Below are positions 6,185 through 11,754 of a stretch of 11,754 bases of DNA, piece by piece. Below the pieces are notes generated by a model. The model did no database searches. It saw only the letters and a program-made list of their open reading frames with translations, and was not told where the DNA came from. This stretch comes from Pseudomonadota bacterium (lineage in GTDB: Bacteria > Pseudomonadota > Gammaproteobacteria > Burkholderiales > SG8-39): contig QGUL01000018.1 in the NCBI GenBank assembly GCA_003242425.1, positions 1-11,754 on the forward strand. Reading direction: 5' to 3'. A program made the position numbers and the translations under genes. Position 1 is the first letter of the stretch. Every line of letters starts with the position of its first letter.

Positions 6185-7906
6185 ATGCAACGACGCGAAT
6201 TCCTGCACGTGCTTGCCGCCGCGGCCGCGTGCGGCTTCAAGCTCGACGCCTTTGCGAAAACCGACGGCGCGGCGTTCTACGACGTGCCGCGCTTCGGCAA
6301 CGTGAGCCTGCTTCACATCACCGATACCCATGCGCAACTGTTGCCGGTCTATTTCCGCGAACCCAGCGTCAACATCGGCGTCGCCGAGGCGGCGGGGCGG
6401 CCGCCGCATATCGTCGGCGAAGCGCTGCTCAAGGCTTTCGGGATCGCCCCCGGCACGCGCGAAGCGCACGCCTTCACCTATCTCGATTTCGTCGAGGCGG
6501 CGCAGCGCTACGGCCGCGTAGGCGGCTATGCGCACCTCGCCACGCTGGTGAAACGCCTCAAGGCCTCGCGTCCCGGCGCGCTGCTGCTCGACGGCGGCGA
6601 CACCTGGCAGGGCTCGGCCACGGCGCTGTGGACCCGGGGGCAGGATATGGTCGACGCCGTCAAGCTCCTGGGCGTGGATGTGATGACCGGCCACTGGGAA
6701 TTCACCTACGGCGCCGAGCGGGTCAAGGAAGTGGTGCAGAAGGATTTCGCCGGCAAGGTCGATTTCGTCGCGCAGAACATCCGCACCTTCGATTTCGACG
6801 AAGAGGTGTTCGAGCCCTACGTGATCCGCGAGATCAACGGCGTGCAGGTCGCGATCATCGGCCAGGCTTTCCCCTACACGCCCATCGCCAATCCGCGCTA
6901 CTACGTCGAGGAATGGCAGTTCGGCATCCAGGAGGAGCGCCTGCAGGCCTATGTGGACGAGGCGCGCGCCAAGGGTGCGCAGGTCGTGGTCGTGCTCTCG
7001 CACAACGGCATGGACGTGGACCTCAAACTGGCGGGCCGCGTGCGTGGTATCGATGCCATTCTCGGCGGCCACACCCACGACGGCATGCCGCAGCCTGTCG
7101 TGGTGAAAAACGCCGGCGGGCGGACGCTGGTCACCAACGCCGGCTCGAACGGCAAGTTCCTCGGCCTGCTCGATCTGGAGGTGAAAGACGGCCGTATCAC
7201 GGATTACCGCTACCGTCTGCTGCCGGTGTTCGCCGATCTGCTGCCGGCGGATGAGGCGATGCAGCGCTACATCGAACAGGTGCGCGCACCTTACAAAGCC
7301 AGGCTCGAGGAAGTGCTTGCGGTGAGCGAGGATCTGCTCTACCGGCGCGGCAACTTCAACGGCAGCTTCGACCAGCTCATCCTCGACGCGCTGATGAAGG
7401 AGAAGGACGCCGAGATCGCGTTCTCGCCCGGCTTCCGCTGGGGGACGACCGTGCTGCCGGGACAGCCGATCACCCGCGAGCGGCTCATGGATCAGACCGC
7501 CATCACCTATCCGTACACCACGGTGACGATGATGAAAGGCGAGATGATCAAGACCGTGCTGGAAGACGTGTGCGACAACCTGTTCAACCCCGATCCCTAC
7601 CGCCAGCAGGGCGGGGACATGGTGCGCGTGGGCGGGCTCACGTACAGCTGCAATCCGCACGCGAAGTTCGGCGAGCGCATCGGCGACATGCGTCTGAACG
7701 GCAAGCCCATCGAGGCCGGCAAGACCTACAAGGTCGCCGGCTGGGCGCCGGTGGCACCCGGCGCGCAAGGCGAGCCGGTCTGGGAGGTCGTGGAACGCTA
7801 TCTGCGCGCCGAGAAAGTCATCAAGCCGCGGCCTTTGAACCAGCCGCGCCTGGTGGGCGTGAAACGCGGCGACCCCGGCGTGGCGGACGAGTTCTTCAAT
7901 GCATAG
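6185..7906 (+). CDS. soxB: SoxB thiosulfohydrolase, Tat-exported
   Basis: This 573-aa protein is SoxB, the periplasmic dimanganese enzyme that hydrolyses the sulfane sulfonate from the SoxY-bound intermediate during thiosulfate oxidation. It belongs to the 5'-nucleotidase metallophosphoesterase superfamily, but the motif that reads GNHEFDYG in nucleotidases is GHWEFTYG here (169-176), the SoxB form. Other metal-binding motifs are HITDTHAQ (D47, H49), DGGDTWQGS (D139), LSHNG (H273) and GGHTHDG (H296, H298). The N-terminus RREFLHV followed by an Ala-rich stretch is a Tat-type signal. The C-terminal domain (about 375-573) is complete, and length agrees with the family. The start has no clear Shine-Dalgarno sequence but places the Tat motif at residues 3-5. 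SoxXA and SoxYZ, its partners, are absent from the window: the upstream gene is an efflux pump and the downstream gene is a convergent TonB receptor. Confidence 0.93.
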   Translation: MQRREFLHVLAAAAACGFKLDAFAKTDGAAFYDVPRFGNVSLLHITDTHAQLLPVYFREPSVNIGVAEAAGRPPHIVGEALLKAFGIAPGTREAHAFTYLDFVEAAQRYGRVGGYAHLATLVKRLKASRPGALLLDGGDTWQGSATALWTRGQDMVDAVKLLGVDVMTGHWEFTYGAERVKEVVQKDFAGKVDFVAQNIRTFDFDEEVFEPYVIREINGVQVAIIGQAFPYTPIANPRYYVEEWQFGIQEERLQAYVDEARAKGAQVVVVLSHNGMDVDLKLAGRVRGIDAILGGHTHDGMPQPVVVKNAGGRTLVTNAGSNGKFLGLLDLEVKDGRITDYRYRLLPVFADLLPADEAMQRYIEQVRAPYKARLEEVLAVSEDLLYRRGNFNGSFDQLILDALMKEKDAEIAFSPGFRWGTTVLPGQPITRERLMDQTAITYPYTTVTMMKGEMIKTVLEDVCDNLFNPDPYRQQGGDMVRVGGLTYSCNPHAKFGERIGDMRLNGKPIEAGKTYKVAGWAPVAPGAQGEPVWEVVERYLRAEKVIKPRPLNQPRLVGVKRGDPGVADEFFNA

Positions 7907-7908
7907 CT

Positions 7909-9975
7909 TCAGCGGCGCAATTCGGCGATCAGACCGATCGACCAGCTTCGTCCCGGCGCCGGCTCGAAGTATCGCCCGGCGCTCTGGTTGACGATGACGG
8001 AGCCGGCGTAGCGCTTGTCGCCGAGATTGTCGAGACGCGCATAGGTCGCAAGCGACCAGCGGCTGTAACTCTTGCGCAGCTCCAGACGCGCGTTGTAACG
8101 CGTATGCGCCGAGGCGGCGTCGGTATTGGCATCGTCCACGTAGATGCGCCCCACATGCACCGCTTCGACGGCCGCGGTGAGGCCGGATAGCGCGCCAGCC
8201 TGATTCGGTTGCCACATCACGCCGGCGTAGATTTGCCGCGAAGGCGTGCCTGGCAGGCGGTTGCCGTCGCTGTCGCCGCCCGCGAAGCGCGCATCGAGCT
8301 CGGTCCAGGCAAGATCCATTCGCCATGCGCGGCCGAGCGGCCGGCGATACGCCAACTCCATGCCCTTGCGTTCGGTACGTGCGGCGTTGCGGTAGGTGGT
8401 GCGTCCGCCCGCGTTCGATTCCACGACGAGCTCGTCGTCCGTCTCGATGATGAAGAACGCCAGATCGAGCGCATGTCCGGCTCCCGGGCGGAATTTCGCG
8501 CCGACTTCCCAATGGCGCGAGCGGGCGGGATCGAGCGCGAAATTGAGGCCCGGCCCGTCGCTGCGGTAGGCGAGCTCTGTGAAGCTGGGCGTCTCGAAAC
8601 CGCGGCCGAAATTGGCGTAGAGGTTGAGCGTGTCGCCGGCGTGATAGGTCAGCCCCAGCACGGGATTGGTCGCGCGATAGCGCACGTCGCCGCTGTCGTC
8701 AGGGTTGCCGGCTGCGATGTAGCGGTCGTCCACATCGAAGCGCACCGTGCTATGGCGCACGCCGGCCAATGCCGTCCAGCTCGCGGCGAAGCGCCACGTC
8801 AGTTGCGCATAGACATCGGCGTTCCACACCGTATCGTCCTCGTCGCGTTTCAGCGCACCGCGTCGGCCGCCGTCGTTGAGGTAGCCGCGGCGGCGTTCCC
8901 GCATCCCGTCGAGCTCGACGCCGGCGACGAAATCGGCGGTGCCGCCATGCAGCCCGCGTCGCATGTATTGCAGACCCAATCCGCCGTAGTCGCGTTCGAG
9001 ATCGACGATGCCGCCTGCCGAAGTCGGGCTCAGTTGCGCGGCGAGCGGGATCGCAAGCGCCTGGAACAGATCGCGCTGGCCGAAGTAGAGGCGGGCGCCG
9101 ATGGAACGCGAGCCGTCCAGCGCATGCTCGAACAGCAGGCCCGCCTGCCGCTGGCGCACCGACTTGCGCGCGTCTTGAGCGAGGTTCAGTGGCGCCGCGC
9201 CGCGCCGGTCGCTTCCGTACTCCGCACGCGTGAGGCCGCCCGGATCCTGCGCGTGGGGCTGTTCGAAGACGTTGCCGGTCAAAGTGAGCCGGCTCGACGG
9301 CCCGACCTCGAAGCGCAGCTTGGCGTTGAACAGCGTACGTTCCGCGGCGCTGTGCTCGCGCCAGCCGTCGGTCGTGAAACGGCTCAGGGAAGCGGCGCCT
9401 TGGAAGCCCTCGGTTTCGCCGAGCAGGCGCAGGCCCAGCCTTTGAGTGTCGGAACGGGCGCGGTCGAGCCCGGCTTCGATACGATCCGGACCGCCGAGCG
9501 CGGTGGTGACCTGGAGCACACCGCCCGCCGCGTTGCCGTAGAGCTGGGCAAGCGGGCCGCGCAGCACTTCGATACGTTCCGCACCCGCAAGATCGATGGC
9601 CGATACCTGGCCCTGGCCGTCCGGCATGGTGGCGGGAATGCCGTCGACGAGGATGCGCACGCCGCGTACGCCGAAGGTCGAGCGCGCGCCGAATCCGCGG
9701 ATCGAGAGCTGCAGATCCTGGGCGTAGTTCTGGCGTTCGAGTGCCTGGACGCCGGGCAGGCGGACGAGCGGTTCGGACAGATTGACCCGCGGCCCGGCGG
9801 CGCGGATGGCCTCCGCGTCCAGCGTATTCACCGCCGCCGGCGCATCGAAGACGCGCTGTTCACGGCGGCTGGCGGAAACGACGATTTCTTCCGCCGTGTC
9901 CTGAGCGGCAACGGGAAAGCCCGCGCCGCAGGCGAGCACGAACAGGGCACAGCGGCGGAAAGCGCGGATGAACAT
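7909..9975 (-). CDS. TonB-dependent outer-membrane receptor
   Basis: This 688-aa protein imports a ligand (typically a metal chelate) across the outer membrane using energy from TonB-ExbBD. A signal peptide (1-24, ending PVAA) precedes a TonB-box-like EEIVVSASR (29-37). The plug domain (about 40-160) contains RLPGVQ, the strongly conserved SIRGFGARSTFGVRG (91-105), VDGIPATMPDGQGQ (110-123) and IEVLRGPLAQLYGNAAGG (135-152). The rest is a 22-strand-type barrel with the receptor motif NLYANFGRGFETPSF. The plug resembles FecA/YncD-like receptors, which suggests a ferric or other metal complex, but the ligand is not determined. The mature protein ends in IAELRR rather than the common terminal aromatic residue. 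The start codon lies inside a perfect inverted repeat and has no Shine-Dalgarno sequence. The gene ends 2 bp from soxB (convergent) and lies 63 bp downstream of the pilus-type ORF. Confidence 0.93.
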   Translation of the reverse strand: MFIRAFRRCALFVLACGAGFPVAAQDTAEEIVVSASRREQRVFDAPAAVNTLDAEAIRAAGPRVNLSEPLVRLPGVQALERQNYAQDLQLSIRGFGARSTFGVRGVRILVDGIPATMPDGQGQVSAIDLAGAERIEVLRGPLAQLYGNAAGGVLQVTTALGGPDRIEAGLDRARSDTQRLGLRLLGETEGFQGAASLSRFTTDGWREHSAAERTLFNAKLRFEVGPSSRLTLTGNVFEQPHAQDPGGLTRAEYGSDRRGAAPLNLAQDARKSVRQRQAGLLFEHALDGSRSIGARLYFGQRDLFQALAIPLAAQLSPTSAGGIVDLERDYGGLGLQYMRRGLHGGTADFVAGVELDGMRERRRGYLNDGGRRGALKRDEDDTVWNADVYAQLTWRFAASWTALAGVRHSTVRFDVDDRYIAAGNPDDSGDVRYRATNPVLGLTYHAGDTLNLYANFGRGFETPSFTELAYRSDGPGLNFALDPARSRHWEVGAKFRPGAGHALDLAFFIIETDDELVVESNAGGRTTYRNAARTERKGMELAYRRPLGRAWRMDLAWTELDARFAGGDSDGNRLPGTPSRQIYAGVMWQPNQAGALSGLTAAVEAVHVGRIYVDDANTDAASAHTRYNARLELRKSYSRWSLATYARLDNLGDKRYAGSVIVNQSAGRYFEPAPGRSWSIGLIAELRR

Positions 9976-10038: not shown

Positions 10039-10602
10039 TCAGCGCAGCGTCTGCAGTTTCTGCTCCACGAATGACGCGATGCCGGGAGCGAGCGTGCCGG
10101 TCTCGCGAGCGCGGGCATAGGCCGCCGCTGCGTCCCCGGTCCGCCCGGCCGCCTCGTAAGAGCGTCCAAGCCCGACCCACCAGATGCCCGCATACGGGGC
10201 GAGGTCCAGCACGGCGAGGTATTCCTCGATGGCTTCGGTGTGACGGCCGAGACGCTGCAACAGCGCGGCGGTGAAGGCCCGGTATTCGGCGTTCGACTCG
10301 GCTGCCGCGGCGTGGGAACGCAAGGTCTGCAGCGCGGCGGCCTCTTCGCCGCGTTCGAGTTGCAACCGTGCCAGCACGATGGCGAAGTTCGTTTGCGCAG
10401 GATTCAAGCGCAGACCCTCGGCCAGCACGGTTTCGGCATCCTCATCGGCATGCGCCTCGATGAGCAGCACCGCCAGCGTCTGACGCGCTGCTTCATGGGA
10501 GGGATCCAAAGCCAAGGCCGACCGCAAGGCGGCGCGTGCTTCGATGACGCCGCTCACCAGTTCGCCGCGGGCGTTGCGGCCCTTGTACTGGAAGGCGGCC
10601 AC
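10039..10602 (-). CDS. Chimeric ORF: MshG/GspF N-terminus joined to MshN-like TPR C-terminus
   Basis: The 187-aa frame begins with a GTG whose first base is the last base of the mshE stop codon, so the two are translationally coupled. Residues 1-22 read (V)AAFQYKGRNARGELVSGVIEA, the hallmark N-terminus of GspF/PilC/MshG inner-membrane platform proteins, and the mshE-mshG coupling is exactly what MSHA operons show. From about residue 23 the protein becomes the TPR C-terminal half of MshN: ALRSALALDPSHEAARQ, then LARLQLERGEEAAALQTL, FTAALLQRLGRHTEAIEEY, WWVGLGRSYEAAGR and a final TGTLAPGIASFVEQKLQ. The rest of MshG (about 380 aa of membrane protein) and the N-terminal membrane half of MshN are missing. 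No frameshift is seen at the join (about 10537-10545). It may be a real deletion fusion, a pseudogene or an assembly chimera; an active product is doubtful. Confidence 0.7.
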   Translation of the reverse strand: MAAFQYKGRNARGELVSGVIEARAALRSALALDPSHEAARQTLAVLLIEAHADEDAETVLAEGLRLNPAQTNFAIVLARLQLERGEEAAALQTLRSHAAAAESNAEYRAFTAALLQRLGRHTEAIEEYLAVLDLAPYAGIWWVGLGRSYEAAGRTGDAAAAYARARETGTLAPGIASFVEQKLQTLR

Positions 10603-11654
10603 TAGTCTTCCACCTCGCTGGTGACGCGCATGACCTCGGCGATGGTGGTGCGTCCGCCGGCCGCGAGCGACAGCGCATGCGAGCGCAGGGTGCAGCCCTG
10701 CATGCGGACGCGCGCAAGCTCCATGAAGCCGGCCGGGTCGTTGCGGTTGACCGCCTCGACCAGGTCGCTGTCCATTTCGAGCAGTTCGTACACGCCGTTG
10801 CGGCCGCGGTAGCCCGTGCCGTTGCAATGCGTACAGCCGCGGCCGCGGACGAAGTTTCCATCGCTTAAGCTCTCGCCGCACGCCTCCAGCCAGGCCCGTT
10901 CCTGCGAAGTGAGAGCATGAGGCTCGGCGCAGCTTTCGCACACCAGCCGGACCAGGCGCTGCGCAAGCACCGCGTGCAGCGAGGTGGACACCATGTACGG
11001 CGGTGCGCCCATGTCGATCAGGCGGATGGGCGTGCTCGCCGCGTCGCGCGTATGCAGCGTGGAGAACACCAGGTGGCCGGTGAGCGCGGCGCGCAAACCG
11101 ATCTGCACGGTTTCCTGGTCGCGCATCTCGCCGACCAGGATCACGTCCGGGTCGTGGCGCAGCACCGAGCGCAGCACGCGCGCGAAAGTCAGATCGATCT
11201 TTTCGTTGACCTGCACCTGGGTTACGCCGGGCAAGCGGTATTCGACCGGGTCCTCGACGGTGATGATCTTCTTGTCGATGGTGTTGATTTCCGCGAGGGT
11301 GGAGTAGAGGGTGGTGGTCTTGCCGCTGCCGGTGGGGCCGGTCACCAGGATCATGCCGCTCGAGCGATGGGAAAGCGCGCGGACGCGGCCGAGGATCGCC
11401 GGCGGCATGCCCAGCGTGTCCAGTCCGCGCGCGCCGGCGGACTGGTTGAGCAGACGCAGCACCACCGACTCGCCGTGTTGCGTCGGCATGGTGGAAATGC
11501 GCACGTCGATCTGCTGCCCCCGTGCGCGGACGTTGCAGCGCCCGTCCTGAGGCAGGCGCTTTTCGGAAATGTCGAGGCCCGCCATAAGCTTCAGGCGCAG
11601 CACCAGCGGCGGGGCGATCTTGGCGTCGGCCTCAGTGCAGTACCAGCATGGAGT
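10602..11654 (-). CDS. mshE: MSHA pilus assembly ATPase MshE (GspE/PilB family), N-terminus missing
   Basis: This is the C-terminal two thirds of a secretion/pilus extension ATPase, which powers pilin polymerisation at the cytoplasmic face of the inner membrane. From the right: LVLRLKLMAGLDISEKRLPQDGR, the MshE-like form of the N2 domain end; ISTMPTQHGESVVLRLL; Walker A GPTGSGKTTTLYS; the Asp box ITVEDPVEYRLPG; Walker B DPDVILVGEMRDQETVQ; the His box STLHTRDA; and a zinc-type tetracysteine set with CESC and CTHC before GRNGVYELLEMD. It ends VTSEVED. Real sequence runs out at about 11654, where adapter begins, so the N-terminal c-di-GMP-binding region and the true start are absent. The apparent extra codons to 11744 are translated adapter. 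MshE is preferred over PilB because of the MAGLDISEKRLPQDGR and STMPTQHGESVV wording. Confidence 0.88.
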   Translation of the reverse strand, partial: TPCWYCTEADAKIAPPLVLRLKLMAGLDISEKRLPQDGRCNVRARGQQIDVRISTMPTQHGESVVLRLLNQSAGARGLDTLGMPPAILGRVRALSHRSSGMILVTGPTGSGKTTTLYSTLAEINTIDKKIITVEDPVEYRLPGVTQVQVNEKIDLTFARVLRSVLRHDPDVILVGEMRDQETVQIGLRAALTGHLVFSTLHTRDAASTPIRLIDMGAPPYMVSTSLHAVLAQRLVRLVCESCAEPHALTSQERAWLEACGESLSDGNFVRGRGCTHCNGTGYRGRNGVYELLEMDSDLVEAVNRNDPAGFMELARVRMQGCTLRSHALSLAAGGRTTIAEVMRVTSEVED

Positions 11655-11754
11655 CTTTCCGTCTATCACATCTCCGAGCCACAGAGACGGACTCAGATAA
11701 AGTATGTCGTGGAGTGCTTGAAAAAAAAAAACATACCCACACATGCCTTATAGT
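11655..11754 (+). other. Illumina Nextera adapter read-through with poly-A tail (artefact)
   Basis: The composition changes abruptly from GC-rich coding DNA. Bases 11655-11673 align without gaps to the rc of the Tn5 mosaic end (12 of 19), 11674-11688 to the next part of the Nextera i7-side adapter (12 of 15, including CCGAGCC), 11689-11696 begin GGACTC as in a Nextera i7 index, and 11697-11720 align to the P7 end that finishes TGCTTG (16 of 24). All blocks fall at the exact expected spacing. Eleven A residues follow at 11721-11731, the usual tail when a read runs past the adapter, then 23 bases of noise. This is low-quality sequencing read-through, not genome. Comparison is from my memory of the adapter sequence. 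Confidence 0.88.

Follow-up and report, generated by a model that had tools for sequence, protein, structure and literature searches.

An in-frame mshG-mshN fusion as the probable scar of an internal deletion in an MSHA pilus locus

RESULTS AND DISCUSSION

A reading frame that joins the start of mshG to the end of mshN

A 187-amino-acid open reading frame on the minus strand of the window, the whole stretch of 11,754 nucleotides analyzed here, starts as the pilus platform protein MshG and then continues as the TPR part of MshN (10602..10039, with a GTG at 10602 and a stop codon at 10039–10041). We consider it very probable that this fusion marks where a single deletion removed the interior of an MSHA pilus locus. 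It appears to be a case of ordinary gene loss, and a real event is more likely than an assembly error. The fusion itself, the usual gene order in relatives, the failure of searches of the assembly to recover the missing genes, and a second copy of the fusion in the database were all observed directly. The assembly to which the window belongs, as contig C239, comprises 533 contigs and 2.42 Mb and is 90.7% complete.

The N-terminus of the frame is VAAFQYKGRNARGELVSGVIEA, with TPR sequence after it. The first 22 codons (10537..10602, minus strand) are assigned to mshG by their similarity to the MshG starts of relatives. Residues 1–23 of the fusion are 78% identical to the N-terminus of MshG from genome G014 (E = 7e-4), and in G014, this start directly adjoins the 3' end of mshE. 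The MshG start could be placed by alignment beside mshE in 24 of 25 chosen loci, and these starts are recognizably similar. The locus that fell out of the set (L210) has a cut mshE, and L109 and L222, both among the 24, probably come from one genome. In the window, the GTG shares one base with the stop codon of mshE, and the same one-base overlap is found in 7 of the 24 loci.

The rest of the frame (10039..10536, minus strand) is the C-terminal TPR part of mshN together with its stop codon. Pfam finds TPR matches here, database relatives bear the name “MSHA biogenesis protein MshN,” and the best of them are 57–66% identical over the TPR part. Matches of the relatives to the fusion mostly begin at query residue 19–21, with a few at 8–18 and one at 35, while residues 21–22 (Glu-Ala) are compatible with both mshG and mshN. 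We therefore place the putative deletion junction at 10531..10545 (minus strand), to within a few codons; the exact base is not fixed because neither parent gene was found in a same-species copy. An earlier note on this DNA, made from the letters alone, had described an MshG start at 10537–10602, its one-base overlap with the mshE stop, and the continuation of the same frame into the TPR part of MshN; all three descriptions hold.

Gene order in relatives

The usual order in the window’s family is mshE-mshG-pilins-mshI-J-K-L-M-mshN, all on one strand, and we take this to have been the ancestral arrangement of the window’s locus. We followed the region downstream of mshE in relatives and found mshG directly after it in 79 of 80 loci from named genomes (the best 80 of 563 were kept); at the remaining locus, the contig stops 31 bases past mshE. 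At the other end, a TPR match at E ≤ 1e-25 was found in 40 of the 98 family genomes searched, the window’s own included. When the other 39 were mapped, a near-complete mshM (266–278 of 278) was directly upstream of mshN in 31. The rest comprise two in which mshM runs into a contig end, four with fewer than 500 bases upstream, and two with a truncated mshM in a scar.

The earlier note had called the gene order in the window wrong. That expectation comes from Vibrio cholerae, where, according to excerpts of PMC4624765, mshN (VC0404) is ahead of mshE and mshG (VC0404–VC0406). Because Vibrio was used as the template, the locus was misread as out of order, whereas in the window’s family, mshN usually ends the locus downstream of mshE-mshG.

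Since mshG and mshN are on one strand with mshN last, a single deletion suffices to produce the junction. Its endpoints would be around codon 22 in mshG and close to where the TPR region begins in mshN, and the frame across the join would have been kept by chance. Measured along one strand, codon 22 of mshG and the position of the join in mshN are 7.8–22.2 kb apart in 17 loci (13 from the family and 4 from outside it), a set in which two loci are probably one genome and one mshG start was extrapolated beyond a contig end. The deleted length was thus probably 8–22 kb. That the mechanism was a deletion, how large and how recent it was, and that function was lost are inferences.

Three genomes of genus g6 (G005, G063, and G066) are exceptions to the usual order, as they have mshN-mshM without mshG or mshE alongside in the stretch read. 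In G063 (L199) and G005 (L223 and L046), the loci hold mshJ-N or mshL-N with no neighboring mshG or mshE in that stretch. In G066 (L200, 3049–19501), no mshL adjoins mshM upstream; there are instead frames of 2,808 and 1,376 amino acids, the former beginning with GGxGND-type repeats, as well as pilin-like genes. G005 also has a distant ATPase some 10 kb further upstream, which we presume belongs to another system. These three genomes were considered as further scars and dropped, as a near-complete mshM is present; judging from this arrangement, the MSHA locus seems to be split in genus g6.

The missing pilus genes

We searched the rest of the assembly for a full mshG, as the earlier note had proposed, and found no family-type copy. 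Three further genes of the GspF/PilC type are present in the genome, the best of which is 31% identical to a family MshG. MshM gave no match in the window’s genome, while all eight control relatives matched, two of them (the scar genomes G104 and G022, described below) by truncated copies or paralogues. A strong mshL was likewise not found in the genome, where the matches are weak (best E = 1.5e-22). Of the eight controls, seven were positive for MshL, six at E ≤ 1e-167 and G022 by a fragment, with none in G104. For MshN, a full-length profile search scored the 7,998 database candidates that share the most words. Among the 120 listed of 603 matches, none was more than 66.5% identical to the window’s TPR part, and therefore no intact MshN of the same species was seen.

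Several contigs hold related genes. Contig C365 (L040, 83–7949) carries a second MSH-like cluster with a regulator, secretin, TPR protein, ATPase, and platform gene. It was rejected as the home of the missing mshG because its platform gene is 31% identical to the family MshG query. Its secretin scores 249.2 bits against an MshL cut-off of 250.2 and sits in this separate cluster. A secretin fragment on C118 was also rejected as mshL (30% identity, E = 1.7e-5), with no MshL match in the locus mapping, and a further secretin is found on C304.

Deletion or chimeric assembly

The earlier note had left two readings side by side, a pilus segment lost by deletion and a chimeric assembly. The first agrees with the gene order in relatives and with the missing genes, although the deletion itself is deduced from them. 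The second would have fragments of mshG and mshN falsely joined in the library or the assembly, with an intact locus in the organism; it is disfavored, and we regard it as unlikely. The assembly is fragmented, and with 533 contigs and 90.7% completeness, the interior of the locus might be unassembled or unbinned. However, mshG, mshM, and a strong mshL were not found in the genome, and the gene order fits a plain deletion.

A second copy of the fusion also argues against a false join. Database entry P0001 holds the same fusion over the full 187 amino acids in a slightly different sequence, with one substitution besides the start residue. It has six member sequences on two contigs, the longest of 3,621 bases. 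P0001 may stem from the window’s own sample, which would lessen its weight against a chimera. Entry P0166 is an intact, 568-amino-acid mshE that is 99.7% identical to the window’s over the shared 330 residues and contains the MshE-related c-di-GMP domain NF053729; it has 17 member sequences on three contigs, the longest of 145,403 bases. Because this intact mshE occurs on such a long contig (up to 145,403 bases), whereas no contig of that size is listed for P0001, an undeleted form of the locus may also exist in the species. No second genome of the window’s genus turned up among the genome searches.

The end of the window’s contig does contain an artifact, which speaks for the chimera. Positions 11651..11754 (unstranded) are Nextera adapter read-through, comprising the transposase end, index, P7, and poly-A, and are not genomic. 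A local alignment of the adapter at the contig end scored 40, while none of 200 shuffled adapter sequences scored above 14. The adapter cuts mshE and gives its open frame a false N-terminus, but this contig end is more than 1 kb away from the mshG/mshN join. Elsewhere in the assembly, the start of C132 is also adapter-like (score 23), and C71 4756–4777 fits the adapter pattern with one mismatch.

The genomic remainder of the gene in the window is the 3' part of mshE (10602..11650, minus strand), the extension ATPase with its T2SSE domain (PF00437, E = 6.4e-112). The mshE gene is split in the assembly, with query residues 2–221 on C357 (40–702) and residues 222–284, from the very next residue onward, on the window’s contig. 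Within mshE, window positions 11596–11650 are identical to positions 1–55 of C357 (L191). This exact overlap of 55 bases suggests, as judged from this single contig pair, an assembly graph with a k of 55, and likewise that repeats could cause a false join only where two sequences have a long stretch in common. We found no repeat of this kind near the fusion: none of the 12-mers of 10501–10579 recurs within the window, and none of the 15-mers of 10401–10700 is present in the six other stretches of the genome that were compared. Within the 55 shared bases, there is a small frameshift with respect to the intact P0166, for which either real decay or a local error could be responsible.

The leftover protein

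The fusion retains the C-terminal TPR region of MshN and lacks the hydrophobic helix found toward the N-terminus in the six MshN compared. Its best 19-residue hydropathy mean is 1.2, compared with 1.55–2.11 in these six. Without this helix, the 187-amino-acid protein would be expected to remain cytoplasmic, and it could be translated by coupling to mshE. Most likely, the leftover TPR protein is a bystander of a recent loss.

We also weighed whether selection keeps the fusion as a cytoplasmic TPR scaffold that is co-translated with MshE and perhaps serves another pilus or secretion machine, such as the C365 cluster. We judge this to be very improbable. In its favor, the frame has been kept without stops, the second copy differs by one substitution, mshN is also open in two relatives with broken loci, and the TPR part is diverging at an ordinary rate (the ratio of TPR to MshE divergence is 1.60 for the window and 1.42–1.91 for 19 others). 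That rate can be explained by recent loss, which it fits as well as it fits kept function. Against selection, a random join has a one-in-three chance of staying in frame, the hydrophobic helix is lost, and no match of the fusion’s shape was found in the 97 other family genomes at E ≤ 1e-25. A related scenario strikes us as equally improbable. Here the deletion would be either polymorphic or fixed in the species, sister strains would have an intact MshE, and the fused TPR protein, made by coupling to that MshE, would have acquired a function in the cytoplasm, such as binding to MshE or to the ATPase of another pilus. The novel TPR protein suggested by the earlier note is thus possible, with no positive support.

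Other broken MSHA loci in the family

Two genomes of genus g23 also have broken loci. In G104 (contig C21; L197, 14745–17960), an mshE fragment with broken frames is followed by mshM without its first part and an open mshN. In G022 (contig C67; L044, 13152–16200), the start of mshL is joined to a later part of mshM, followed again by an open mshN. Like the window, both show an internal loss in the MSHA locus with mshN left open. Unlike the window, they have other endpoints, with an mshE or mshL fragment on the left and mshM on the right. The right endpoints are at mshM residues 59 and 62 in G104 and G022, respectively, while the left endpoints differ; given the near-equal mshM endpoints, the two scars may share one event. 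Because the g23 scars differ from that of the window, this one bacterial family has seen at least two separate breakages of MSHA loci. The mean TPR distance of G104 and G022 is 0.61, compared with 0.51–0.59 in 18 of 19 comparison genomes; the 19th (L166) is at 0.70.

Comparison with known systems

The V. cholerae MSHA locus (mshI-mshF and mshB-mshQ), as outlined in excerpts of PMC4624765, makes the mshE ATPase, the mshG start, and the mshN TPR part recognizable in the window. Unlike V. cholerae, the window’s family has the order E-G-...-I-J-K-L-M-N, from which the window keeps mshE, 22 codons of mshG, and the tail of mshN. The same excerpts report that V. cholerae has no surface pili once mshA, mshE, or mshL is lost, whereas pilus production is not lowered by the loss of mshI, mshM, or mshN. 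In the MSH model, as given in parts of PMC6668835, mshA, mshE, mshG, mshL, and mshM are mandatory. The mshE of the window’s genome is recognized by PF00437, with the gene split over two contigs. What is left of mshG is the 22 codons in the fusion, with no family-type copy elsewhere, and in this 90.7% complete genome, MshM has no match and MshL only weak ones. With most of mshG gone, and the secretin and MshM gone from the assembly, the locus should not make a pilus.

The same parts of PMC6668835 also mention type IV filament loci that are inactive and partly deleted. The window is like the deleted loci mentioned there in that MSH-required genes are missing and outer genes are left, and unlike them in that its two ends join in frame. 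Among the titles and abstract openings returned by a literature search, we saw no paper about such a deletion. The window illustrates how a pilus locus can be reduced by one deletion to a single chimeric frame, which an annotation could take for a new protein. It also flags adapter sequence in an assembly as truncating mshE.

Genes flanking the fusion

Downstream of the fusion and on the same strand is a TonB-dependent receptor gene (7909..9975, minus strand), which has no match in the 10 relatives’ loci that hold an mshN TPR match above 60 bits. The MshE of the window is 63–70% identical to that of MshE loci in named genomes, and the nearest named MshE relatives of this bacterium are Betaproteobacteria. 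Convergent with the TonB-dependent receptor gene, positions 6185–7906 encode a strong match to the SoxB thiosulfohydrolase (TIGR04486; 887 bits, where the cut-off is 550), which hints at sulfur oxidation.
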